The notes below the pieces were generated by a model. It ran no database searches. It saw only the letters and a list, made by a program, of their open reading frames with translations, and was not told the origin of the DNA. A stretch of DNA of 64,000 nucleotides from Ulota crispa (Eukaryota > Streptophyta > Bryopsida > Orthotrichales > Orthotrichaceae), in NCBI GenBank assembly GCA_963920765.1, contig OY987249.1, positions 8,866,817 to 8,930,816 on the forward strand, in the 5' to 3' direction. Below, piece after piece: positions 16,746 through 42,757 of the stretch. The stretch's first letter is position 1; each line of letters starts with the position of its first letter. A program made the position numbers and the translations under genes.

Positions 16746-17699
16746 TTGTTTGCAATGGATCCCATTTTCAATTCCCAATTGGCAATGGTCATGGGAATAT
16801 GGATGGTTGTGCAAGTGTTAATTGCAGATCAAAATGATTTCCAGGCCCCTCCTACTGTGGAAGAGGATGACCACTTCTTTGCTCCAACACAAGCTATTCT
16901 CAAAACACTTGCAGATCTGGCACTCAATCCCTTCGCTAACACGGACATCGGCCTCCATTTGCTTTGTTTGTGCACTCCATCCTTTGTACTGAATGAGGAA
17001 CTAGGGTTTTGGGTTAAGCCCAGATCAACAACATGGTTCAGCCGATTCCTCATGGAAGAGTATGACAACAGTCGGTGGTTCGAAATGTTTCAGATGAGGA
17101 AAAAAACAATTTTTAGTTTGGCCAATTTGTTGGCTCCTTAGGTTCATTGGAAGGACATGAGGTATCAGGTTGTGGTACCAAAGATTGTCCGCGTTGCTTG
17201 CACGCTTTATAAACTATCACATGGAGTTTTGTTCCTTTCATATTCGGAGTTGTTTGCAATTGGCAAGAGCACGGTCTGCGATGTCTTACGTGACGTTGTT
17301 CATGCCATAAACAACACTTTCTGTTACAACATTAATTGGCCAACAGGGGATCGCCTTTGCCTCACTCAAGCAAAGTTCAAGGACTTGTGCAGCCTACCTT
17401 CTGTTGTGGGAGCTATTGATGGGACACATGTCTCAATTTCTAAGTCCCGTTACGTCCTTGCAGACTACTACTACTTTAAATCTAGTGGATCCCAAGAGGA
17501 TGTGCAGAACTTGTTTGATGTTTTGGAAGCGGAAGCCATGCAAGGCGACGTCTTTGAAGGCATAGCAACCGATGCAAATGCCAAGTACGGACCTGAAGGT
17601 GGTGAGGCAATACATGAAATGGCGGGGACGGTTGCAGCTCTTCAGAACAAGCAGTTACTAGGTATGCAATTGAGTAACCAAAGACCAGAACTACCATAG
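16746..17699 (+). pseudogene. PIF/Harbinger transposase (DDE_Tnp_4/HARBI1 type), disabled
   Basis: One frame runs from the ATG at 16746 with a single stop (TAG, 17139-17141) to 17699. The part after the stop has family hallmarks: VRVACTLYKLSHG, ELFAIGKSTVCDVLRDVV (helix-turn-helix-like region), and PSVVGAIDGTHVSI, which holds the first catalytic Asp, then ADYYYFKSSG. Straight after this the frame jumps to an acidic C-terminal-like tail (SQEDVQNLFDVLEAEAM). The normal stretch with the second Asp and the Glu is missing, so an internal deletion removed most of the catalytic core. The cut lies near the GGATCC at about 17488. Confidence 0.8.
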
Positions 17700-24329: not shown

Positions 24330-26769
24330 AGCCAATGTGCTTTGAACGGTGCAACTTTTTTTTCAGATTGAATAGAATTTTTCGGTGGAAAGAAATTTGA
24401 GGGAGACTTTCTGCGACAATCTTCGGTAGTGTACCCTTACTATCGTGAGATTGAAGTTCTGGAATTTCTTTTTTAGGTTTTTTAGTAGGTTTGATAGTTT
24501 AAGAACGTTTCAAGTGTAGGGAATGGTATTTACGGCCACGAATTGCTTGTCCATATAATTCTGATTGTAACATTATCACATGGAACTATTTCGGGAGGAA
24601 TAATACCAAATGTTGACTGCACACGTTTCGTCACTGTGAACTATAGCCAGGGTTGTATATCTGCCATATATATTTCGTAACTTTGAAGCCCAGTAGTTAC
24701 TGCATCACTGGCTGGCTTCTGCAAATGAATGGGCGAACTAGGTGATTCGCTTCTGAAGACATATCTCGTGGCTGTCGTGAAGTTGAGATCCACAATGTTA
24801 TGAACTGAAGGCTCATATGTGAATTTCAAATCTGAACAGCAACCCGAAGGTAGGTTGCCATGTCTAGGACCTAATGTATCCTCTTCTATTTCTAACGCTT
24901 CTGTTCACTCTTTAGGAAACTGTATATGGATAGGAAGTAAAAGCTTAACTTGTTGCGCCCTTGGATTGAATCCATTACCTTACGCCAGGTACCCACTCTG
25001 GGTAGAGAATGCGGTTCATATGTTTATACTCCTAGGAATAGTTTTCTGGTGCATGGAACTGGACATTCTTCTAATTTGATTGTATTTTCAATTGAATTAT
25101 CCTTCTGATCGTCGTCTCATAGTATTCCAGAGAACCGTGGTTAACCATCCTCCCGTTTGGCTTGTCATGGTATCCCGACATCTCATTTTTGGAGTTGAGC
25201 TCAATTTGAAACAATGGGAGCTCCTCAAGACAGTGAGCGTCTGTTTTCATATGTGAGTATGTTAAGCTTCAACATAACTTGCTTTGTTCTGGTATGACGT
25301 GACTTTGCCCTAAATAGGTCTCAGTTGGCACTGTTCTCATCAATGGCTCCATGCCACTACTTCTCAAGAATCAAGAGGTTGGCGTCTTGTGCGGTGAGAA
25401 CTTCATCCTTCTTCGTGAAGGACTGATGCCAACTTAGAAACTGGCTTGCCGAAGTTGACATGATTCACGACCATACATCAAGTCTTGAGCTCTCCTGATG
25501 ACGTATCTTCATCATGAGTTTCGACAGGACAACAGGTTTGCATGCTTTCAACGGAAGGCCCTCGAAACTGCACCGTTTGGAAATACTTGTACGCCCTGGG
25601 CAGCCTATGCGTGACAAGCTCCTTTTTGCAAGTGATCAACTTCGGTCTTTGCTTTGGACTCGTTTGGAACTTCGCCAGGTACGGGCTTCTCTTCAGCCGC
25701 TCCAAACCTAAAGACATCTTCTCTTTCTTTTTAGGATTCCTCTCATTGCCCTCCGGCACAGCGCCAAGCTGATGAGCCCCCTCCAGCTTCAGTTGCTGCC
25801 TGAACCCTAAGTTCGACATTTTTAATATGATTCCAGAATCATGAAACCTCGCCATGGAGCAGCTCCGGTAACCCGCAATGGTTCCGTTGTTGTAACTCAC
25901 ACCTCAGGTAATAATCTTCTTCTATCGCGCTCATTTGCAAAGCATCAGTTTGCAACATCCTTCTCACAGAATCTTGTGCCTATAGAAAGCCCCCCTGAAA
26001 CAATGTCTCCGTCATGTATTCATGATAGAGCCATTTCCAAGGCCGAACTTCGGAGGTTATAATTCGAAATGGTCCGTTCTCGTGTTGAGTGCATCAGACA
26101 CCGAGCTATATCTTAAGATTTTAGTGAACGTCTCTGATCAGCAAATACGAAGACTGTGATGTATAAATTCTCACCACACAAAAATTGAAATTTGATGAGT
26201 GACAGACAGACAAGCAACACTGAGCTTCTCTGTCGTGTGTAAAAGTCAAGAAAGCTTTAGCAACGTAATCAAATCACAGTCCAAGTAAGGAAACTGAGAC
26301 TGGTTTCGAGTTTTTTTTTCGAACGTGTGACAAAGAAAAAACCTAAATTCAGCACCACTAGAGAAAGAGAGAGAGGGAGGGAGTTAGGGCCACAAACGGC
26401 TTCGTAACCAAATGTGGGAATGCAAAGTATGACACCGTTCAGTTGCCAAAGGTCGACGCGTCGATTCTGACAAGAGGTTGCCACCGTTCGCCAGGCAAAA
26501 CTTTGCCTGCATGTTCTCTTTGAAGTTTTAACTTCTGCTGTCGTGGTCTTAGAGGGATTCAAGCTGCTTCCTCGTCGGAGAAGTGTAAAATTATAGTGTT
26601 ATGCCCTGGGTATCAGCCCGCGTTCCCTTCTAGAGTTCCCTGTGATAATCAAAGGCTCTGGTGTGACTTTCTGATCGGACGGTCGAGGTGTCCCCTGCCC
26701 GAAGCTGGGTTACGGGAGACTCGCGTAGTGACGTGGGGGCGACCCTGGTTTCTTTGCCCTTCGATACTA
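24330..26769. other. Unresolved region with coding-like, splice-like pieces
   Basis: No family recognised. Plus-strand pieces with plausible borders: about 25132-25233 (FQRTVVNHPPVWLVMVS..., donor ACA|GTGAGC), 25319-25395 (acceptor AG|GTCTCAG, donor GTGCG|GTGAGA), and 25514-25678 (MSFDRTTGLHAFN..., donor CAG|GTACGG), followed after a 54-bp gap by 25733-25804 with a stop. A last piece, 25841-25905 (MKPRHGAAPVTRNG...), ends at a GTAATA donor. They do not join into one gene in my hands. This may be a decayed gene, exons of an unknown gene, or chance. Confidence 0.3.
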
Positions 26770-27345
26770 CTCCCTCTGTCCCAATATGAAGCTCCAAATT
26801 AGGCACAGTTCTTGTTCCACTAAAAAGCTCCCTTTTTGTTAATTTCAATTCCTGAGAAAGCGTTTGTCATGTTCAATGATCTCATGGGGCAAGTTAAGCA
26901 ATTAAAAAGCATTCCTCTCCTAACAAGCTTGGCCTTGTCCATATGAGGTATCATTGTTGCTACTAATCTTTAAATCATCAATAATGAGGAGCTTGCAACA
27001 TGTACAAATATGATTGCATGGAATTTGGGTGCCCAAATGGCAACATCAAAGTTGGAGATTTTGCACATATTTGGTGGGTGGTATATTGATTCTAGAGTGC
27101 ATTTGTCACTAGCACAAAGACTAAAATAATGAGGAGCCGGTAGCCTCCACAAACTATGCACAAATATGATACTTTTTGTGTGAAATTTAGGTGTCTAAAC
27201 AACAGCATGAAAACTTGAAATTTTGGACATATTTGATAGGTGGTATATTGATTCTAGATTGCATTTGTCACTAACATAATGACTAAAAATACAGGTAATT
27301 CCTTGTGGAGAAGTTTTTTGGAGCTTTATAATGGGACAGAGGGAG
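26770..27345. mobile_element. Stowaway-like MITE with internal duplication
   Basis: Ends CTCCCTCTGTCCC and GGGACAGAGGGAG, flanked by TA on both sides (26768-26769 and 27346-27347), as in Tc1/mariner-type Stowaway MITEs. It is longer than its relatives at 30200-30626 and 38041-38459, because an internal segment (ATATTGATTCTAGA...CACTAGCACA) is present twice. Confidence 0.8.
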
Positions 27346-27820
27346 TATTTCATAAAGTAAAAAGGTGGGTCCACAGCCGTAATCCTAACCCTAACATCAA
27401 GACCTCCTCTTCACTCTCAATCCTTGCAGAGTTTCCTCTGGATTTGCTTCTCGTATTAAATTTCTCTCTCTGCTGCCTTTGATGGCAGCTTATGTGACTT
27501 AAAACGTGTCTTTCCACTGCATACTACGTTTTTATCTCCGTCGTCGAAGTGTAGTACATCTTGGCGCACTCACTCTTTGTGGGATTTTCTTCATCGTTTC
27601 GGTGTTTTGCTTTTTCTCCCGGTAACTTAATATTAGGTTTTTGTTCTAGCTTTGATGTAGGATTTAATGTTTTGGTACGTTCTTTTTCTTTTTGGGTTGT
27701 GGGTGTATGAAAATCTTTGTGTAGTCTTAGTGGTACTGTAGCTGCTTGAACATTCACAATATGGCATTTTTTTAGGTCTTTATATTCCGCTTTTATCGCC
27801 TGGTTACTTGTGTATGTTAT

Positions 27821-28097: not shown

Positions 28098-31000
28098 ATG
28101 GCTTCGAACGGCGGCGACTTCAGCGATGGCTGCACAGCCGCAGCGTTGTTCAAGCAAGGCTTTTCCTACACATACGACGATCTTATTTTTCACCCGGGGT
28201 ACATCAACTTCGCAGCGGACGACGTGGATCTTCGAACCTCGCTCACGCGCAACATCCAGCTGAGAACACCGTGCGTGTCCTCGCCCATGGACACAGTGAC
28301 GGAGGACTCCATGGCAACCGCCATGGCGGCAGTGGGCGGAATTGGCTTCGTGCATTACAACAACACGTCGCAGGAGCAAGCGGAACTGGTGCGGAGAGCG
28401 AAGAAGCAGAGAGTGGCGTACGTGGCAGATCCAGTGTGCGTGCGACCGTCGGACGCCATCGCCACAATCGACACCCTGAAAGCCACCCGGGGGTTCTCGT
28501 CCGTGGTAGTGACGGAAGACGGACGAGTCGGGTCGCGCCTGGTGGGAGTGGTGACGAGCAGAGACGTGGATTTCGTCCGCGACCGGAGCACCGAAGTGCA
28601 GGAGGTCATGACTCGGGACGTCGTCACTGCTCCTGCGGGGATCACTCTGGACGAGGCGTCGAGGATTCTGATTCCGAGCAAGGTAGCAACACTCATAACC
28701 ACCCATAACCATCACCTCTAAAATCTTGGAAAATCTGTGGAAGTGAATAAGGTAGATGCATCTAAATGTGACACTTTTGTAAAATCAATTCACTAGGAGT
28801 GTGCATCCAGATTCTGAGATTGTAGAAGGTTTAGGAAACTAACAAAGAGTGCTGAAAAATTTGTTTTTGGAATTTTTTGAGATCGTACGAATAAACTACG
28901 AATTGTTGAAGGTAACTCCCTAGACCCACCTATTGTGGACACATACTGGTTCATTTCTAGGTGTCTGTAAATGAATGCTGTCAGATTTAGGTGCTTCTAC
29001 CTTAGATGTAATTACAAGGATGTACAACATGTGAACATGAAACCTTAGTGTTGGTATTAGGTGCAATTGCAGTCGGCTCTTTTAAAAATTCACAACTTAT
29101 TCTCTCAATATATCCCAATAATACATTTGAATGTGCAAACTCATCATTTTTCTATTGCTAATAGGATCCTATAATTTGCTAGATGTTCAAAAGCCTTAAT
29201 TTGTTTTGACGGTGGTTATGGGTGCGGATACCAGAAGAGTTTGCTTCCGATGGTGACGAACAGTGGAGACTTCGTCCAGCTCCTCTGCCGGACGGACCTC
29301 AAGCAATTCCATGCGTTACCACCTTTGGGAGCTCCTTCTGTTGGTGCCGACGGGCACATCCTCGTGGGCGCCGCCATTGGTACTCGTGAGAGCGACAGAG
29401 ACCGTCTGGCGCTGCTTGTGGACGCTGGTGTGAATGTCGTCATTCTCGACAGCTCGCAAGGGGACTCGATTTACCAGCGGCAGATGGTTCAGTACGTGAA
29501 GAAGGCGCACCCTGGTTTGGATGTCATCGGCGGCAACGTCGTCACCGCTTACCAAGCAAAGAATCTCATCGATGCTGGCGTGGATGGCTTGCGTGTTGGC
29601 ATGGGCTCTGGTTCCATTTGCACCACGCAGGAAGTTTGCGCTGTTGGACGAGGCCAAGTACGTCGTCACTCTCTCCCTCCCCTCACAACTCTTCTCCCTT
29701 CATGTCCAAGGCTGCTTTTGCACTTCCTGTCAGTGGGTGTTGCACTTGTAGAGAACTAGTCTAAGGTAGGAACACCCGTAAGCGTCACTGTCCCCATAAC
29801 CGTCACCTCTGAAATCTTGAAAAATCTGTGGAAATGAATAGATGTAATTACAAGGATGTACAACATGTGAACATGAAACCTTGAAAGTGGTTATGGATGC
29901 AATGGCAGTTTGCTCTTTAAAAATTCACAACTTATTCTCACAGTATCCAAATAATACATTCGAAAGTGCAAACTCAATATTTTTCTGTTCCTAATAGGAT
30001 CCTATAATTTGCTAGCTGTTTATTAATACTCATCATGTTCAAAACCCTTCGTTTGACGCTTATGGGTGCTCCTACCTTAATCAGTCGTTTGAAAACAAAA
30101 AAAAAACAGATGACTGCAGGGTTCGGGCTGCGCCTCCATATACCCGAGAGTGGTGTTCACCCTGCTCCTTAGCTAATTAATGGTATCCCTAAATTAGTAC
30201 TCCCTCTGTCCCTCTTAAGAACGTCCAAAAAGCTTCCTTGCGAAGGATTAACCCTGTTTTTAGTCTTTGTGCTAGTGACACATGCATTCTAGAATCAATA
30301 TACCATCTACCAAATGTATGCAAAATCTCTAGTCTTGATGTCGCCGTTTAGGCACCCAAATTTCATGCAAAAAGTACACAATCTTTGTGTATGCTGCCAG
30401 CTTCTTATTATTGATGATTTAAGTATTAGTAGCAAAAATGGTAACTCATATGGGCAAAGCCAAGCTTGCTAGGAGAGGAATGACTCTCTAATTGCTTAAC
30501 TTGCGCTCATGAGATCGTTGAACATGACAAACGCTTTCTCAACGTTTGAAATCAGCAGCAAAAGGGAGCTTTTTAGTGGTACAAGAAATGTATCTGATTT
30601 GGAGCTTTTTAGAGGGACAGAGGGAGTAAGCCGTTACCTAGTTAGGCTAACTACTACCCTAATAACTAGTCACTCTCAGGATCCCTAACTTTACTGCTCC
30701 TGTTCTGATTTGGCATGTTCCAGGAGTAACAACAGTACTTCCTGTCCAAGGCTTTTGCACTTCCTGTCCATAGCTTTTGCATTTTCTGTCAATTGCGGAG
30801 ACCCCATTGTTTTCCTAAGTTTTTGATTATATGAGATGCGGTGCATATTGCAGGGCACTGCCGTGTACAAGGTGGCAGCAGTAGCGAATGCTTTGGGAGT
30901 ACCCATAATAGCAGACGGGGGAATTTCGAACTCGGGGCACGTAGTGAAGGCACTGTCGTTAGGAGCATCGACAGTCATGATGGGAAGCTTTCTCGCTGGC

Positions 31001-33318
31001 ACGGACGAAGCGCCGGGCAACTTTTTCTTCCAGGTAAACCTTTTTTTTCTCAACAACGCATGTCTGGCTAGAGCTTGGCATCTAACCCAAGTTGTTTCAT
31101 ATTTTTTGGAGCTTTGTGGAATTAGTTATGAAATTTTGAAGTGGAAGGCCATAGGGCTCTAAAATAGTGCACCTCCTCAAATGTACATTGCTTGTACATT
31201 GTTGAAGGGCTATGAAACAAATAGAGTATATTTGAGGAGGTGCACCATTTTAGAGCCTACACGCTTTTAGAATTTTAGAACCTCCTGCCTTACAGCATCC
31301 CCAATGCAATCTACTACATGCACCGTCATTCTATAGGTTCATCCCACTTTCAGTTCTAAGGGACCCAAACACCCTCACTATTATATCTACCTAGAAAATT
31401 CAATCAAAACTCATCTTATTTCGAATGTCAGATAGAGGAGATCCCACCAAGATTGTTATTATTAAGCACGGAGCTGACTGAATTTACTACAAAATATGAC
31501 GGGCTTGACTTGAGCAACCCTTGTAAAGGAGCCGCTTTGCTTTTCATCCATTTTGATGTGTGTTTACAGGCTGCTGCATTGTAGACGCTCTTATACACTG
31601 CTCTGTAATGAAGGCACATTAGCTTCCCAAATTCACTCGCATTTTGTCAGAGACGTTGTTCAATCTGATCTAAACTGAACGTGACAATTTCTGAGAATTT
31701 CCAGGGACTGTGCAAATTTCAGAGTGCGTCCTTGGAAAGGGGTTGGCTGTTATATTTGGTTGTTGTAGTTTTTAACCATGCCTGTCTCTTGCATGGGGAA
31801 TCTGAGACGTTTTTCAGGGCTTGATTTTTCTCAGAGACACTGTTTTTTTTATCAACATGTTGCTTTTAGATGCACTGCACTTGACATAGGTTATCATCTA
31901 GAAGGATACTGTCGACATAGCTGATATGCTGGACGACTCTTTCTGCATGTTTTTTGAAACTGCACATAAACCAACAAGCCTAAATTTCTAGTGTTGAAAC
32001 CTGAAAGAGAGCCCCTCAGTCAACCCCTGAACATTTTACTGGTTTTGAGTGAGCCTTTTCTTCAGTCCAGTTTTAGTTTTTTTGTATCAATGCATGCAAC
32101 CTCGTGATGTAAGATTTGACACCCCGTCTGAGTTTTCTTTTCTACATCACAATTGGTCAGTTTTTGGGGTAATGTATATGTAAATTTGCAGGCTGTAGTG
32201 CCTGATTGGTTTGGTTTTGTACATATAGGATGGTGTGAAACTGAAGAGCTACCGAGGAATGGGGTCTTTGGAAGCGATGACCAAGGGTAGTGATGCTCGC
32301 TACCTCGGTGACAAAACTCACCTAAAAATTGCACAAGGAGTAGCAGGTTCTGTAGCTGCCAAGGGCTCAGTGTTGCGGCTCGTCCCGTACACTTTGCAGG
32401 CTGTGAAGCAAGGGTTGCAAGATTTGGGCGTGGCTTCTGTCAAGGCCGCTCACGATGGTTTGAACGCTGGTGCTATCAGGCTTGAGGTTTGTTTCTCCTA
32501 TTCTTCCCATCTCTTCCATTAGGGGGTTTCGAAGGTACAAACTTTTTATCATCAAAGACTTAGGTGATGTGTGCACAGATTTTATCATGATAAAACAAAC
32601 TTTGCTGTGGAAATAAAATTGCTAAAATTGCACAATAGAGGTAGCATTCCGAACCTTGGAGCAGTATAGTGCCATCATAATTACAGTTTTCCATGTTTGT
32701 TGTTCCTCACTATTAGAGACCTTGTTTGTTGCGACGTGGCCATAAATTTTGTCAAGTAGATTCTCTTACATACCTTGTGTGAAGAAAAGTGGACTATAGC
32801 ACGTGTTTTAACAAGATATTTTATAGACTTTGTTGCAAGAGTAAAATTGCACAATAGAGTTAATATTCTGGACCTAGGGGTAGTAACATGTATGCGTCTT
32901 TAGAGCTCCTCACTCCTAAAGATCTTTGCTTGCTGCAAGTTATGTTGAGTAGTTCCTTCACTTAATGTTGGTAAGGAAAGTGGACAGTTAAATCAGGTGT
33001 TACCAAGATACCTTATCACTTGATAACCAATACCTTTTCCTTGATAAGGTTTGCATGATAAACAACATATTTTGTTAACTTTGAAACCTCCAGTGAATAG
33101 TATGGAAGTTAAGATAAAATTGCAATATATCATGCAATTCTATTAAGGAAAACCAAACCCCTATTAGTATAGTACAGGAAGTATGACATTGGCGGTAACG
33201 GGCACATTTCTACCTTCACTGACAAAACGATATTTCTTGGTGGCAGGTGAGAACTGGTGCTGCTCAAAGAGAAGGTGGTATCCACGATCTTGTATCGTAT
33301 GAGAAGAGGAGATTTTGA
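28098..33318 (+). CDS. IMPDH: Inosine-5'-monophosphate dehydrogenase, 5 exons, complete
   Basis: Cytosolic enzyme that oxidises IMP to XMP with NAD+, the committed step of GTP synthesis. Exons 28098-28682, 29235-29657, 30854-31033, 32229-32486 and 33247-33318 sum to 1518 nt, 505 aa; every intron is phase 0. Visible features: N-terminal [18 protein letters not shown] and [12 protein letters not shown] of the TIM barrel, a Bateman (two CBS) insert at about 115-230, [35 protein letters not shown], the catalytic-Cys loop [11 protein letters not shown] (Cys about residue 324), [30 protein letters not shown], the flap [10 protein letters not shown], and C-terminal LVSYEKRRF. The ATG at 28098 is the first in frame; the frame is open further upstream but has no ATG there. 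Intron 1 is MITE-derived (see findings). Confidence 0.96.
28681..29233 (+). mobile_element. MITE that forms IMPDH intron 1
   Basis: The intron (28683-29234) starts GGTAGCAACACTCATAACC and ends GGTTATGGGTGCGGATACC. The two ends are inverted repeats, 18 of 22 matching from GGTA inward. The same ends and body occur as a separate MITE in intron 2 (29764-30077), which shows the sequence is transposon-derived. Element and intron borders agree within two bases: AAG|GTAG serves as donor and TACCAG| as acceptor. Confidence 0.75.
28750..29002 (+). mobile_element. Nested TA-target MITE within IMPDH intron 1
   Basis: Ends AGGTAGATGCATCTAAA and TTTAGGTGCTTCTACCT, flanked by TA (28748-28749 and 29003-29004). 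The related MITE in intron 2 has the empty site at 29839-29840 (GAAATGAATAGATGTAATTAC), which shows insertion into TA with duplication of TA. Confidence 0.8.
29764..30077 (+). mobile_element. MITE in IMPDH intron 2, relative of intron 1
   Basis: Ends AGGTAGGAACACCCGTAAGC and GCTTATGGGTGCTCCTACCT, flanked by TA. The body is collinear with intron 1 minus its nested insert (for example ATTACAAGGATGTACAACAT and TAGGATCCTATAATTTGCTA in both). 314 bp, non-coding. Confidence 0.8.
30200..30626. mobile_element. Stowaway-like MITE in IMPDH intron 2
   Basis: Ends CTCCCTCTGTCCC and GGGACAGAGGGAG with TA on both flanks (30198-30199 and 30627-30628). The body shares CACATGCATTCTAGAATCAA with the related elements at 26770 and 38041. 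Confidence 0.85.
31058..31260. repeat. Repeat fragment in IMPDH intron 3
   Basis: Contains GGGCTCTAAAATAGTGCACC and, inverted, GGTGCACCATTTTAGAGCC, a foldback of about 100 bp. Related sequence (GAGGAGGTGAACTGTTTTAGAGCC and similar) occurs in the larger elements near 41500 and 46900. Confidence 0.55.
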
Positions 33319-35370: not shown

Positions 35371-38300
35371 TCACCTACCCTGTACCGTCTCCGCTTGGCG
35401 CTTCGAAAGAATAGAAGTGCATTGCGCCATAGCCCTGGACGCCCTCGAAATGGCATCAGTCATGTAGTAATTCTCAACGGCCTTAGGAAGAGGCGACGAC
35501 TCCAACGCACTGCTCGGTCTCGTGGCTGCATCAAGTGACCAGCCAGTGGCCAGCTCCACTTCGTCAACGCGCAACAGATTCGGAGACACAGCCAGCATGC
35601 GAGCTCTCAAACCATTAGCAGTGTCATAGGGGAGCGTCTTCCCGGCCACTTCAGAGAGAGCACGGATGATCTTCCAGTCATCACGAGCATCTCCGACAGT
35701 AGGCACAGCCGGGCTGGTTTGCTGGGGTCGGCCTTCAAGGTTCTCATAAGTGCCTTCCTTCTCCGTGTACGCCACTCCAGGGAGGATCACATTCGCTCGG
35801 TACGCACTGCGATCCCCGTGGTGACCCTGGTACACCACAAAAGCATCTTCAGGGACATTTGCCGGAGTTAAATCATCCGCTCCCAGCAGGTACAAGAACT
35901 TGGCCGGTGCTTTGCCAGCCCTCGCACCGGGGACGAATCCGAGATCACGCGCCGCGGCCTGCGAATTTCAGTGATCCCAAATATGATTTTCACTTTTAGC
36001 ACAAGTGGCTAAAAACACTGCTAAAAGCTAAAAATTTCAGATTTAACACCGGAAAGCTTACATTTTTTTTAGCTACTAGAAAAATTTGTTAGCAATCCTG
36101 CTAAATTTAGCCAGTTTAGAGAACGCTACCTGCGATGCGTTCAGAAGCAACACGTTTGCGCCAAACCAGTCGTCACGAATGAGAGTGCTGTGCTGTGCAA
36201 TGGTGTCCAATGCAGACATGATGGCTGCCTTGTCTGAGCGCTCTAGAGCCCCACTGCCCACGATGACCACCGGACGCTCCGCTGATGCCAACTCGGCGCA
36301 ATACGGATGTCGTCCTTCCGCAATCTCTAACAGAGTGTCAGTGCTCGTGCCGAGGTGCGTGTGGGGGTAGGCCAAATCCACCTTAGGCCCCACGACAGCC
36401 ACCTTTGTTTTGTTGAACCTCACTGCTTTCCTCAGCCTTGAGTTCACCAATGGTGCCTCCCATCGAAGCTGCAGTCACAAGTGAGCAAACATCAGAGCCA
36501 GGCTCAGCCATGGAGCAGATCATGGTCTCTTGTGCATACTGAAAGCCCAGAATATGATTGGTCGAGTCAGCAACTTTAACAGGACGATCATACGTACTCA
36601 GAAGGTAGGGATAAGAGTAGTAGTACAGTAGAACCTCCGTGAAGCAATATTATCTAAACTAATATCCCCTCTAATCTAATGTCTATTGCTAATCTCAATG
36701 TGAGCTCCCAGCCACACATAAATTAATGTCAGTCATGGATCAAAATAATTTATTCAGCAACAGTCAAGTTCCTCAATTCTATCTCTGGCAAGCCGGCACT
36801 ACCCTCAAGATTACTCTGATACACCTCCACATAATTAATAAATGACCTACTTAATCTAATATGGACCATGCAGTCCCAACCATGTTAGTTTACAGAGGTT
36901 CTACTCTATAGAGGATCTGGCCTTCTACAGTGTATGGAGGAGAAAAAACAGCCCTATTTGAAGCGAAGAGGAGGTTTTTAATTACATCATTCTCGTATAG
37001 ATTGCATCTGTATAAATTTTAAACATAATCAAGTTCTCCATTCGTTTCAAAGCTAGAATCCTTCAAGTGTTAATTTTATGAAAAAGGATGTAACTAAACC
37101 AGTGATTTCAGTATTGCTGTAGCATAGACTGAATAACTTTGTGTTACATACCTATTAATTAATTCAATATCAATGAAACTACGGAATTGAAGTCCCTACC
37201 CAGTTTTAAAATTGTACATAACCAGTGACTTGTGTGATGCAAGTCAATGAGATCAACTCCTAGGGGACCTGTTTCGTAAACATTCGATCAGATTCTAGAC
37301 AGAACCGCCTGCGCGGCGTTACAGCTATTCTGACCTTATCACAGACTCTATTTGCTCCACTCCATAGGATTTATGATTAAGCAGGGGTTTTTGGAAGAGA
37401 ACCCCTGAAAGAAGTCTTTCATCTGCAGGGGTCTTAAAGGCATCGGAAGAGGAAACGGTATAGTATGCCAAGTTTCCTCCTCAGGGTCTTCTATAAGACA
37501 AACTAGCTCAGAAATTAACATCAAGGTTCGGAAGCAAGAAGTAATTACCTGAGTTCCAATCAAAAGACAGACGTCTGCCTGTTCAAGGGCGGCAATACCC
37601 GTGTTCAACAAGAACCGAGATCTCAGGTCCGCATCCACAGACTTGCCATCTCCTTCAGCCCAGAGACGCTCGCAACCCATTCTGTTCAAAAAATCCTTTA
37701 ATGCCAACATGGACTCTGCATCTGCCAGCTTGCCAGCTACACCTACCATCTCATCAGGCTTCACTTTGTAAGCCGCTTCAGCAACAGCTTCAAGAGCATC
37801 TTTCCAAGAAACAGCCTGTAATTGGCCATCGGGACGACGAATCATTGGCTCACTCAAACGCTGACGCTTCAGACCATCGTAACTGAATCGTGCTTTATCT
37901 CCAAGCCACTCCTCGTTAATTTCCTGCACCACCGATAGAAACATCAATATTGATGAATGTCCCAAGGGTAATCAGTCAACAGAACAGCTAATACCAATAC
38001 CAACACCAGTTTGAAAGGCTATTACTTCCTCAAACAAGTACTCCCTCTGTCCCATTATAAAGCTCCAAAAAACTTCTCCATGAGGGATTAACTGTATTTT
38101 TAGTCATTATGCTAGTGACAAATGCATTCTAGAATCAATATATCACCTGCCAAATGTCTGAAAAATCTCCAGTTTTTATATTGCCATTTGGGCACCCAAA
38201 TTCCATGCAAAAAGTACCATATTTGTACATGTTGCTAGCTCCTCATTAATGATGATTTAAAGAGTAGTAGCAACAAGGGTACCTCATATGGGCAAGGCCA

Positions 38301-41300
38301 AGCTTGTTAGGAGAGGAATGCTCTTTAATTGCTTAACTTGCCCCATAAGATCATTGGACATGACAAACGCTTTCTCAGCAATTCAAATCAGTAAAAGGGA
38401 ACTTTTTAGTGGGACAAGAACTATGCGTAATTTGGAGCTTTATATCGGGACAGAGGGAGTAGTTTATTAATAAGACCTATTCCATCCTGCTGCAATTCCT
38501 GTAAAATAATTTGCTCCAACACTACGAATCTCACTAGATCCATTGTTGGATTCAGAAAGTTATCAATTGTACATTACGGTTAACCTAACAGTAAATTAAA
38601 TCAATACTAGAGATAGGCAACTAGGCCAGTTAGTTTCTAGCTAATGCTGACTTGATGTAAGGTTAATACCATAGTAGTTAATGCAATGTCAAGTTTATGC
38701 CAAGCATACTAACACCACATTAACCTTGAACTAACAAGATTTGCAATTTACGTTAACATTAACTTGACATTAACTCAACATGAGGAGAGTATGAAGCTAA
38801 TGCCTATCAACCTAAATTTATCAATCTGAAGGAAAGAATATTCTGTACAGTAATTCAAATGAATTGGTATACGAGATTTGCTGGAAAACAGACCTCATGA
38901 AGACGAGGAATGATACGCATCACTTCAGGCCCTCTACTATTGATGCGGATGTTTGAGCCAACAGCGTCTAGAACGTCAATACTTTCCGTACTCTTCAGCT
39001 CCCACGGTCTTGCGGTGAATGCATATGGCTTGGACGTCAATGCACCGACAGGGCACACGTCTATCACATTGCCAGATAACTCGCTGGTCATTAAATTCTC
39101 AACATAAGTTCCAATCTCTTCGCTCCCTCCACGTCCCAGAACACCCAGATCCTCCACACCAGCAATCTCCTTTGCGAATCTCACACACCTGGAGCAAGTT
39201 CCAGTTGCATACAAACAATAAATTCACATGTTCTAATTGCAGTTTTTTATTTCGGCTTAAGGTAGGCGCACCCATAAGCGTGGAAATAAGGGTTTTGGAG
39301 TAGGTAAAACAATTGACTAACTTTGAAAAAAAATACTGTAAGCTAGGAAATGGAAACCAAAAATATTGGCATCAATTTCAAGGTTCCAACTGCAAGCATT
39401 TGTTCACAAAGACTTTTCACAGTCCAAAATCACTAAAATTGTAGGAACCATGTGTAATAGATGCTAAAAACAAGGCTTGTTGGTTCTCAAATAGTGAGAT
39501 GGGTACTCAAAATCGTCATGGAGTCACCCACAACCATCACTTTGTCACCCATAAATATCACTTAAGTACCCATAACCACCTTGACTTTGTCAATGACGCC
39601 CATGGCTGCGGCTACCTTACATATAGACAACGACAAAGCAAAGCTATCTGCTGTTCTGAAAATGCTCATTAGGTGTCATTTGCAAAGCACTTCTTCCAAG
39701 AGCCTTCTCATAAGAAGAAGCTTTCTCATAAGAAAAAGGTTAAAAAAAAGGAGGAATTTTTCATGGATACCCCTGAAGTTTGCAATATTTACATAGATAC
39801 CCCTGCTTTTTCAGAAATTGCACAAATACCTTTGGACCAAAATTTTTAGGCATTTGTTTTGTTGTGCATGTCACTTCCCTTCTTCCTTTGTGCACACGTT
39901 GTTTCATTTTTGTTTCATTACATTTCCTTTCTTCAACATTGGTCATGAAGGGAGTACAAGCACAACAAATAAATGCCTATAAATTTATGGTCCAAGGGTA
40001 TTTGTGCAATTTCTGAAAAAGCAGGGGTATCTATGCAAATATTGCAAACTTCAAGAGTATCCGTGAAATTTTCCTAAAAAAAACAAGGTAAGCCATGTAA
40101 ACGGCCAGCTTATGGCAAACCACGTGCTTCACAAAACCCAAGTAGGATGATATGGCATAATCATTATTACTCCCTCCGTCCCAAAATGATGTTCCTATTA
40201 GCCTTTTTAGTGTCCCAAAATGATCTTCTTCTTGGATGAGGAAGGAAGTTAGGGACACTTGCACATAGTCCAAAAGCATGGGCATGCTAACCAATCCCAT
40301 GTCATCAAGTGAGTGGCCACTGGTGCTCTTCAAAAGTGCCTCAAAAATTCAATTTTCAAGCACTTTGAAACCACACTTTAAAAAGTAATTTGAAACTCAA
40401 AATTTCAGAACAATAGGAGGACATCAAACTCTATTCATAGGTAAAAAATAAAATAAAAAATGGTTCTTTTCAAGTTTTATTTATAACATTTTGTGTAATA
40501 GGAAGATCATTTTGGGACGGAGGGAGTAGTATGCAACGATATACACCGCACATTTCTAAGCCTGCAACTTTACCGGAGTGACTCACCTGGTACATTGAAT
40601 GCATCGAGTCATAATGGTCTTCACAAGAGGTCCCAGATTCTTATCAAGGACAGATCGCTTCGTGTCAATAAAACGGCCACGGTCCGATCCAAACACCATC
40701 GACTGATCTTGAAGATCACACTCTCCACCTTGATCGCAAATTGGACAATCCAGTGGATGGTTCATCAACAAGAACTCCATCACTCCCTCTCTTGCTTTCT
40801 TGGCCAGAGGTGTATCAGTCTTGATTTTCATACCTGAAAAGCCACTACTCAGCCTCTTAAGGTAGGAGCCTCTAATTCGGACCATACATTTTGAACCAAC
40901 CATGTAGGGGTCACAAAAACAGTGCACAGAGGTTCTTAAAATGGGGTCACATTTTTTTAATGTTCAGAAATTGTACTTGTGTATGCACTATTTTAGGAAC
41001 ATAAGAGAGTGATATGAGCCACTATTGTGTGTGCTTATTGGTCATAATTGTGTTCAGATCTGTCTTTCAGTAAAATATAAATATATGTCACACTAAAGTA
41101 AATGAAAACATGTTCTCAATCATGATTTGAGTATTAGAATATGGAATGGGTGCTTGCACGCTTCAAGAGCCTTATTGGAGCATTCTTGGTTTTATAGTGG
41201 TTGCTTTTAGGACTCATGTGCTCCATTTACAACCCGCCTTTGCATCTAACTCAAAAAAATTCAAATTAAATGGCCACATAACTGCCTCCTCTTTGGCTTT

Positions 41301-42757
41301 CTACCAAAAAATATTTCCATTTTACCAAGCTGCCCTAATTTTTCCACAAAAGCACACTTTTGCTTAGATGCTCCATTCACGAGCCTCCTAAGGTAAGAGG
41401 CTCAAACTCTGTTAGGGCAGTAATACCATTCACCTCCCTAAATGAACTCCACAGGTACATGCCCTTATTCATAGCCTTTCAGCAATGTATAGCGGGCGTA
41501 GATTTGATGAAGTGATCCATTTTAGAGCCCTATGACCTTTCCACTTCAAAATTTCATAACTAATTCCACATTGCTCTAAAAATTACAAAATAACTTGACT
41601 TAGATGCCAATTCCTCTTGTCATTCAATAAAAATTTACTGAAAAATATTTCAAGAAGTTCCACCTCCCCAAAATTCAGTTTCAGCTCTTAGATGGTCGGT
41701 TTACAAGCCTCTTACCTTACCACCTATGACCAAGAATAGCTATCCATGCACCTTTTGCTTTGATAAATTGTAGTTAATTCATACTAACTCAGAAAATTTC
41801 AAATTAAATGGCCACATAACTATCTCTTCTTTGGCTTTCTGCCAAAAAATATTTCCATTTTATCAAGCTGCCCTAATTTTTTCACAAAAGCACACTTTTG
41901 CTTAGATGGTCCATTCACAAGCCTCCTACCTTAGCATCCATCTTACAGAATCGATCCAAAAACAAATCATGAAATAAGGTTTTTTTTTTCATTTTGTAAG
42001 AAGTGTCAAAGTGGCAATTTAAAATGTTATAGTGGTGCTCCAAAGTTCAACATTCATCCACATATTGGATAGAAAATATCACATGAGCACATATTACATG
42101 TCTATAACTTGGTTTTCATCCACAATTTGGCGATTTCGTCCAAGCTTTTTTTTAATTTGAAGATTTTTTGGCAATTTCATCCAAGTTTTTTGCTTTATTT
42201 TTTAGCCAGACTTTTATTTTTGGTGCAATTGAGCACCAAATCGCAAAAAAAAAAAAAAAAAAAAAAAAAAACACTGCAGACACGAAATCTTTCAACAGAA
42301 AAACAAACAGCTTGGAAATCGAACCTGGTAAAGCAGGCATGGCGCAAGAGGCGACAGGCTTGGGCGTCTTCTCAACCTCAACCAAACACATGCGACAATT
42401 TCCAGCTATGGAAAGACGACTGTGATAACAAAACCTGGGAATCGTTATTCCGCCCAGCTCACATGCCTGCAGCACTGTCATGCCCTTCGGCACTTGCACC
42501 GGCATTCCATCCACGCTTACTTCAATTGTCTCCACCTCCGTTTTCTCGGGCTTGACTCTGTTGGAAGCGACAGCAGTAGCACCAACGCTAGAGGAGTGGC
42601 GTACACCGCCACGCAACATGCTATTATCCGAATACTTCTCAAAAATATTCTGAGCGCCTGCGAGTCCTCTGTGCTGCCTCAAGCTATTTCGAAACAAAGG
42701 AGCAGTAGCGGCCACCTCCTGCAACAACTTCACAGTTTGACGTCCCCTGCACGCCAT
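35371..42757 (-). CDS. NDUFS1: Complex I 75-kDa subunit (NDUFS1), 6 exons, complete
   Basis: Iron-sulfur subunit of the matrix arm of mitochondrial NADH:ubiquinone oxidoreductase; it passes electrons from the flavin subunit along clusters N1b, N5 and N4. Exons in gene order: 42757-42325, 40833-40587, 39188-38894, 37923-37549, 36468-36130 and 35958-35371. They sum to 2277 nt, 758 aa, all in phase. The N-terminal ~75 residues are Arg/Ser-rich and poor in acidic residues, like a mitochondrial presequence. N1b ligands are in [20 protein letters not shown] (about residue 110-135); N5 in [20 protein letters not shown]4 in CIQCTRCVRF plus [10 protein letters not shown]. The rest is the molybdopterin-oxidoreductase-like fold (for example [16 protein letters not shown]). 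Length fits plant orthologues (about 745 aa). Introns 1-3 carry several MITEs. Confidence 0.96.
38041..38459. mobile_element. Stowaway-like MITE in NDUFS1 intron 3
   Basis: Ends CTCCCTCTGTCCC and GGGACAGAGGGAG with TA at 38039-38040 and 38460-38461. Closely related to 26770-27345 and 30200-30626 (shared CAAATGCATTCTAGAATCAA and GGGCAAGGCCAAGCTTG). Confidence 0.85.
39260..39617. mobile_element. AGGTAG-family MITE in NDUFS1 intron 2
   Basis: Ends AGGTAGGCGCACCCATAAGC and GCCCATGGCTGCGGCTACCT, flanked by TA (39258-39259 and 39618-39619). Belongs with 29764-30077 and IMPDH intron 1. The inside has several CACCCATAA words. Confidence 0.75.
39752..40083. repeat. Foldback repeat in NDUFS1 intron 2
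   Basis: GGATACCCCTGAAGTTTGCA near 39770 pairs with TGCAAACTTCAAGAGTATCC near 40043; the arms continue through ATAGATACCCCTG. About 330 bp with inverted arms of about 90 bp; probably another MITE. Confidence 0.6.
40170..40526. mobile_element. Stowaway-type MITE (CTCCCTCCGTCCC ends) in NDUFS1 intron 2
   Basis: Ends CTCCCTCCGTCCCAAAATGA and TCATTTTGGGACGGAGGGAG with TA at 40168-40169 and 40527-40528. The termini are the classical Stowaway consensus. The body differs from the CTCTGTCCC elements in this window. Confidence 0.88.
40860..41931. mobile_element. Compound AGGTAGGAG-family element in NDUFS1 intron 1
   Basis: Outer ends AGGTAGGAGCCTC and GCCTCCTACCT flanked by TA (40858-40859 and 41932-41933). 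Inside is a second element at 41391-41717 (AGGTAAGAGGCTC to AAGCCTCTTACCT, TA flanks). The right-end segment (ATGGCCACATAACT...CACACTTTTGCTTAGATG) occurs twice, at about 41268 and 41808, on either side of the inner element. So this is a nest or tandem of at least two elements. Confidence 0.65.
41979..42272 (+). mobile_element. AGGGCTTTT-family MITE with A27 tract at NDUFS1 intron 1 donor side
   Basis: Shares TTTAAAATGTTATAGTGGTG and TTGGTTTTCATCCACAATTT with 56535-56825 and, inverted, 22741-23030. Its right end is a 27-base A run at 42245-42271 that lies 53 nt inside the intron from the NDUFS1 exon 1 donor; in the transcript this is a U27 tract. Confidence 0.65.

Follow-up and report, generated by a model that had tools for sequence, protein, structure and literature searches.

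The first intron of the IMPDH gene studied here carries the ends of a MITE at its own edges, and it raises the question whether the insertion of a transposon into an exon has made a new intron in a land plant. The gene lies in the window, by which we mean the whole stretch of 64,000 nucleotides that was analysed (C8:8866817-8930816 of a 275 Mb assembly); genome-wide searches were run on that assembly. Five exons between 28098 and 33318 encode an IMPDH of 505 residues without an inner stop, and the reading frame is kept where exon 1 meets exon 2. The relevant features of the window are given below, with a slash marking an intron or element border here and throughout.

28098..28682, + strand: IMPDH exon 1, ending ...CCG AGC AAG (from the open frame, PDB alignment and the uninterrupted paralogue)
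28683..29234, + strand: IMPDH intron 1, 552 nt, GT...AG, phase 0, an element from edge to edge
28681..29232, + strand: MITE copy AGGTAGCAACACTC...GGGTGCGGATACC in forward orientation (from genome matches; arms 28682-28703 and 29211-29232)
28750..29002, + strand: second MITE nested within the intron 1 element, TA/AGGTAGATG...GCTTCTACCT/TA
29206..29210, + strand: branch-point-like TTGAC within the element, with the A lying about 24 nt upstream of the acceptor AG (a consensus match only)
29232..29237, + strand: tandem acceptor CAGAAG, of which the choice of CAG gives SKK, matching the paralogue
29235..29656, + strand: IMPDH exon 2, beginning AAG AGT TTG (from the open frame, PDB alignment and the paralogue)
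29764..30077, + strand: family member inside IMPDH intron 2, TA on both flanks, away from the splice sites
30853-31033, 32229-32486 and 33247-33318, + strand: IMPDH exons 3, 4 and 5
39260..39617, + strand: element related by its ends, which are the same, flanked by TA on either side and with another body

Intron 1 starts with GTAGCAACACTC and finishes with GGATACCAG. A preliminary description of the locus had noted inverted repeats at these ends that match at 18 of 22 positions; the repeats are found at 28682-28703 and 29211-29232, and none of 20,000 shuffled versions of the intron gave a match of this extent. The further assertion that the intron is an element and almost nothing else also holds, as it is a copy of a MITE family from end to end. 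For the intron 1 element 79 matches in the same genome were listed, drawn from the best 40 of 3,843 candidates scored, and it differs from the majority sequence of the family by 3.8% over 289 sites. The arms of the nested MITE (28748-28773 and 28979-29004) are 88% alike, and portions of it match other places of the genome; the family copy in intron 2 shows the uninterrupted counterpart of its site. The proposal that the terminal repeats supply both splice sites is correct for the 5' GT and for the TACC that precedes the acceptor, whereas the 3' AG lies outside the repeat. The 39 nt ahead of the acceptor are free of AG. Solved IMPDH structures align without a gap to the window protein across SKK/SLLP. 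Further features were noticed by eye in the window: longer, Stowaway-like elements with ends like ACTCCCTCTGTCC...GGACAGAGGGAGT upstream of IMPDH (26766-27347) and inside it (30200-30627), and an open frame of 180 amino acids (17157-17699, + strand) that resembles a piece of a transposon nuclease and gave no Pfam match.

A paralogous protein is encoded without this intron elsewhere in the genome. A protein search with IMPDH returned one paralogue, on C1, with 82% amino-acid identity, which matches residues 8-337 of the query in one open stretch without a stop (C1:19434346-19435335). It aligns gap-free with window exons 1 and 2, and its site reads CGC AGC AAG / AAG AGC TTG CTT CCG. Since the paralogue has an SKK of equal length, the predicted splicing would restore the IMPDH site exactly; the net gain of three bases assumed in the preliminary description has to be given up in favour of a length-neutral event. 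The second acceptor (AAG) of the CAG AAG pair, if used, would leave one lysine fewer. The other three intron breaks are found near the same residues in the two genes, and therefore only intron 1 distinguishes them. Fourfold sites differ between the paralogues at 78 of 150 positions (52%), compared with the 3.8% divergence of the element, so that intron 1 should be much younger than the duplication. Taken at the level of sequence, IMPDH intron 1 is thus best read as a gained intron that arose long after the gene was duplicated. A literature search for intron positions in plant IMPDH genes gave no useful match.

The element belongs to a large family. Its consensus form is TA, AGGTAG...CTACCT, TA, and a simple search recovered both ends in 25 of the first 29 other places. 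TA is present on both sides in 42 of 53 entries and on one side in the remaining 11, a count in which three copies, that of intron 2 among them, were entered more than once. Terminal inverted repeats and a TA target duplication are the marks of a TA-target (Tc1/mariner-like) MITE. An 18-base pattern of the end occurs 7,449 times in the genome with at most two mismatches, as against 214 times for the reversed pattern; if each element shows both ends, this corresponds very roughly to 3,600 copies. At least two subfamilies exist, one ending ...GGTTATGGGTGCTGCTACCT and the other ...CGCTTATGGGTGTTCCTACCT, and AGGTAG is found in the left terminal repeat of nearly all copies. The intron-2 element had been described as an independent MITE with the same ends and a collinear body, and this is confirmed: its 26-nt arms match at 92%, and its body is collinear with that of the intron 1 element, in one stretch of 185 bp at 86% and another of 48 bp at 92%. 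The element at 39260-39617 had been taken for a third member. Its ends and TA flanks agree with this and its body does not; it has only some 41 terminal bases in common with the intron-2 copy (88%) and is therefore a relative by its ends rather than a collinear copy. It probably sits in an intron of a complex I 75-kDa-like gene; two open frames of this type are present on the minus strand, one with a Fer2 domain (42152-42757) and one assigned by eye (37348-37965). Members also lie within ordinary introns, namely IMPDH intron 2 and, by eye, those at L020, L025 and L058. Among the matches listed the commonest departure from the standard end is CTACCAT, with 69 such ends genome-wide; these may be point changes of CTACCTTA or another insertion form. 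The right flank AGTGTTTTTTTT is common to L126, L132 and in part L134, in L126 and L132 followed by CACCTACCA, as though the copies had landed in another repeat or been copied together with it.

A genome search for family MITEs whose borders coincide with introns had been suggested. A search for element ends that are directly followed by AG yielded at least seven exons interrupted from edge to edge, that of IMPDH included. TATGGGTGNNNNTACCAG gave nine exact matches, of which intron 1 is one. From a slightly looser list ten places were fetched, nine ending in TACCAG and one (L099) in TACAAG; the left extension was done for L090, L091 and L095-L098. At seven loci, intron 1 among them, the element reads AG/GTAG...TACC/AG (once AAC/GTAG) and the frame is open across the join. 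The others are listed here with an eighth locus.

L090: ...IDVIK/TRLQLD, mitochondrial carrier
L091: ...ENTNK/NNKSHN, histidine-rich, no Pfam match
L094: ...EKMAK/SKRSTT, no Pfam match
L096: ...DESIL/TKCNLQ, exon ending AAC and not AAG, no Pfam match
L097: ...RMASK/YSFQPMKHAWG, expansin
L098: ...HRRYVK/SMSEQQL, CDC50, element antisense
L142, eighth locus: right side only, Arm repeat with E = 0.0038, below the Pfam cut-off

Element and intron edges thus coincide at seven loci, in seven genes and with elements of two subfamilies, as is expected of introners. AAG or GAG stands ahead of the intron in six of the seven and AAC in L096. In six cases AG stands ahead of GTAG as well as behind TACC, and L096 has AC ahead and AG behind; TA on both sides is found in none. 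The left exon of L090 appears to have a one-base frameshift relative to the form expected in the carrier family, and the carrier gene may therefore be broken.

The intron is absent from a homologous gene for IMPDH, by sequence, and for CDC50, by coordinates; the expansin evidence is mixed. Two CDC50 paralogues (C5:3897004, 65%, and C8:10732757, 52%) run uninterrupted through the site as judged from coordinates only, and a third, distant relative has its break at 117/118, away from the site near 128. Yeast Cdc50 aligns ungapped with the L098 product over the junction, and an ungapped junction alignment to solved structures was obtained at four loci, IMPDH, CDC50, expansin and the peroxidase of L115 described below. 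Of the expansin paralogues, at least five continue without a break across the L097 site (residue 140), and one (C1:20166) breaks at 142/146, close to it. An ancestral status of introns A, B, C and F in EXPB (beta-expansins) has been put forward as a hypothesis (PMC3680112). This and the nearby break make the expansin case the weaker one. For L096 no paralogue was found in the genome. These data also bear on a different history, in which an old intron received the MITE and lost the rest of its sequence while the paralogue lost the intron precisely. Such a course gains some credit from the family members named above as lying within ordinary introns and from the expansin paralogue with a possible intron close to the position of L097. 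It would, however, require the exact loss of both flanks at each of seven loci and, in addition, that the IMPDH paralogue and two paralogues of CDC50 each lost the intron precisely, and we consider it improbable.

The exonic copies were compared with copies that carry other ends. In the TACC/AG class 8 of 14 copies examined were exonic, versus 1 of 81 in the remaining classes of end that carry AG (Fisher p = 2e-7; with L107, L108 and L137 counted as exonic controls, p = 9e-6). Whether a copy was called exonic was decided, partly by eye, from its open frames, its base composition and its family matches. The class extends beyond these 14: the count leaves out C9:9018845, C5:18861013 and, among the matches listed, at least three weaker TACCAG ones, and L099 is not counted. 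Not exonic in this class were L092, L093, L095, L139, L140 and L141. L093 has an open frame of 97 codons over the join, without a Pfam match, and was scored as not exonic; L140 and L141 probably stand outside the family. All ten CTACCTTCAG ends were fetched, with one exonic copy (L115), seven that were not and two (L107, L108) that were not classed. None of the nine fetched out of 15 CTACCTTTAG ends was exonic, and of the CTACCNAG ends, all 13 of which were fetched, 12 were not exonic and L137 was not classed; 49 CTACCTTAAG ends, described below, make up the rest of the 81. The right flanks of L107, L108 and L137 are open and gave no Pfam match. The one exonic copy with a CTACCTTCAG end is the following.

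L115 with L116, C10:4107300-4108654: class III peroxidase intron, ...FDNQ/YFKDL, TC on both sides

Its element has a different body and shares the end sequence with the MITE family. A gene-model artefact or chance, in which the exon was simply read on into an element whose repeat happens to hold a GT, is extremely unlikely in our estimation. AGGTAG does occur in the left terminal repeat of nearly every copy, and splicing is predicted here; against this stand the exact restoration of length relative to the uninterrupted IMPDH paralogue, the ungapped protein alignments at four loci and the contrast of 8/14 to 1/81.

The element appears well prepared for removal by the spliceosome. Of the rows without an intron label, 87 in number with three second rows of introns included, 85 in forward orientation carry YTNAY at a distance of 15-45 nt from the end, and the median AG-free stretch is 60 nt; the same 87 rows reversed have the motif in 23 cases and a median of 23 nt. 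In each of the eight introns examined YTNAY is present and the AG-free stretch measures at least 37 nt. The YTNAY counts are matches to a consensus and say nothing of actual use. The left end of the MITE supplies AG/GTAG. The right end contributes CTACC and a branch-point-like YTNAY with its A some 21-26 nt ahead of the acceptor, to which copies in the usual orientation add the long AG-free stretch, so that it lacks only the AG itself. An exonic copy with AG before GTAG and AG after CTACC would then be removed by the spliceosome, and the exon would be restored.

How the copies reached their exons can be judged from their relationships. In a distance table of 94 rows, which includes second rows of the introns L091, L094 and L096, the nearest copy is non-intronic for each of the seven exonic copies once these second rows are set aside. 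The seven are interspersed with non-intronic copies and belong to two subfamilies; the three that are members of the second one come together in a region of the tree from which few copies were sampled. The orientation of L098 is opposite to that of the other six (p = 0.06, alone not significant). An intron spread by RNA would keep one orientation, and the reversed L098 thus points to DNA transposition; the scatter among non-intronic copies together with this inverted case favours repeated transposition of DNA. An RNA route would have a spliced MITE-intron reverse-splice into AG sites of transcripts that are then copied into DNA. It might account for the GTAG...TACCAG ends in all seven copies (the right end was demanded by the search pattern), for the AAG or GAG before the intron in six of them with AAC in L096, and for a right side without the TA duplication. 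With two subfamilies, in which each exonic copy is nearest a non-intronic one, with L098 reversed as would not be expected from copying one intron RNA, and with the end pattern present thousands of times in the genome, we give this route very little credence. That MITE insertion into exons made new introns, and that IMPDH intron 1 is one such event, we therefore hold to be highly probable. The transposition as the route of insertion and the removal of the exonic copies by splicing are both inferred, the latter from sequence features. The intronless paralogue and the further cases in the same genome uphold the initial idea of a transposon insertion spliced at its own edges, and the preliminary interpretation of intron 1 as a whole is partly supported.

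The acceptor side calls for a separate explanation. In all seven exonic copies it is devoid of the last T and of the TA of a standard insertion; their shared TACC/AG form is in part a consequence of the search, which demanded TACCAG. The route first envisaged, insertion at a TA target followed by G, does not fit, as the exonic copies read TACC/AG and the final T and TA are absent. A seamless insertion at TAAG that leaves CTACCTTAAG was considered and rejected. The fetched loci contained 54 CTACCTTAAG ends, of which five without a left end were dropped; none of the remaining 49 could be shown to be exonic, ten were open across the join and none of these had a Pfam match above the cut-off. The expected starting state was therefore not found. 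L058 was dismissed as a CTACCTTAAG exonic case, its copy seeming by eye to lie within a short ordinary intron. Two possible alternatives are proposed here. The insertion could have directly duplicated A or AG and so formed TACC/AG. Alternatively, the TTA of CTACCTTAAG could have been lost later because AAG is a poor 3' splice acceptor. Against later loss, a change of A to C would do, yet only one of the ten CTACCTTCAG copies is exonic, and this one (L115) reached its exonic state by a TC duplication; also, the IMPDH paralogue carries CA and not TA at the left of the site, and a TA target at IMPDH therefore needs an extra change. Against direct duplication, the non-exonic copies examined have TA at one of their borders or at both, as in the standard form. 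TA is present on the left of four of the seven exonic copies, which is only suggestive because A is common there ahead of introns. We lean slightly towards duplication of A or AG at insertion over later loss of TTA.

Short length, terminal inverted repeats, TA duplication, many copies and no coding capacity seen place the family close to Stowaway and other Tc1/mariner MITEs; it differs from Stowaway, with its end CTCCCTCC, in ending AGGTAG. In maize, insertions of Ds and dSpm are spliced from transcripts, as mutant alleles and imprecisely. Both systems concern plant DNA transposons with splice sites near the ends that are removed from exons, and the present introns differ in being predicted to be seamless and in lying mostly in intact-looking genes. 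Introners were found in 175 of 3,325 genomes surveyed (Gozashti et al. 2022, PMC9860276). In the accessible text of that survey they are reported from algae, fungi and other microbes and from no land plants; among 835 animal and land-plant genomes only two groups had them, both animals, at a threshold of families of at least four introns (PMC9860276). The present family resembles the DNA-transposon introners described there in being non-autonomous, in having terminal inverted repeats with splice signals at or beside the ends, in several length-keeping gains and in copies outside genes. Unlike the enrichment in genes reported for 161 of the 175 introner genomes, a handful of introns is found here among several thousand copies; the usual target duplication is TA here and 3-9 bp there, and both orientations occur here (PMC9860276, accessible text). 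A literature search, with preprints and most subscription papers outside its range, gave no report of a land-plant introner among the titles and abstract openings listed, and the accessible parts of PMC10487979 and PMC12550479 mention none.

Whether a land plant here has a working introner family, a TA-site MITE with an AG-duplicating exonic form that yields seamless introns in either orientation, we can answer in the affirmative only tentatively, with the balance of our judgement somewhat against it. An expansin, a class III peroxidase and a B-lectin protein in this genome are consistent with a land plant, although they are no proof of one. How lineages that are rich in introns and gain them slowly, plants among them, come by new introns is an open question. 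With this common MITE family both the source elements and the filled sites are at hand, and two of the genes have uninterrupted paralogues as well. This makes the single steps testable: the landing site, the origin of the acceptor AG, the preference for one orientation and the odds that an insertion survives as an intron, for which the measure at hand is a handful of introns found among several thousand copies.
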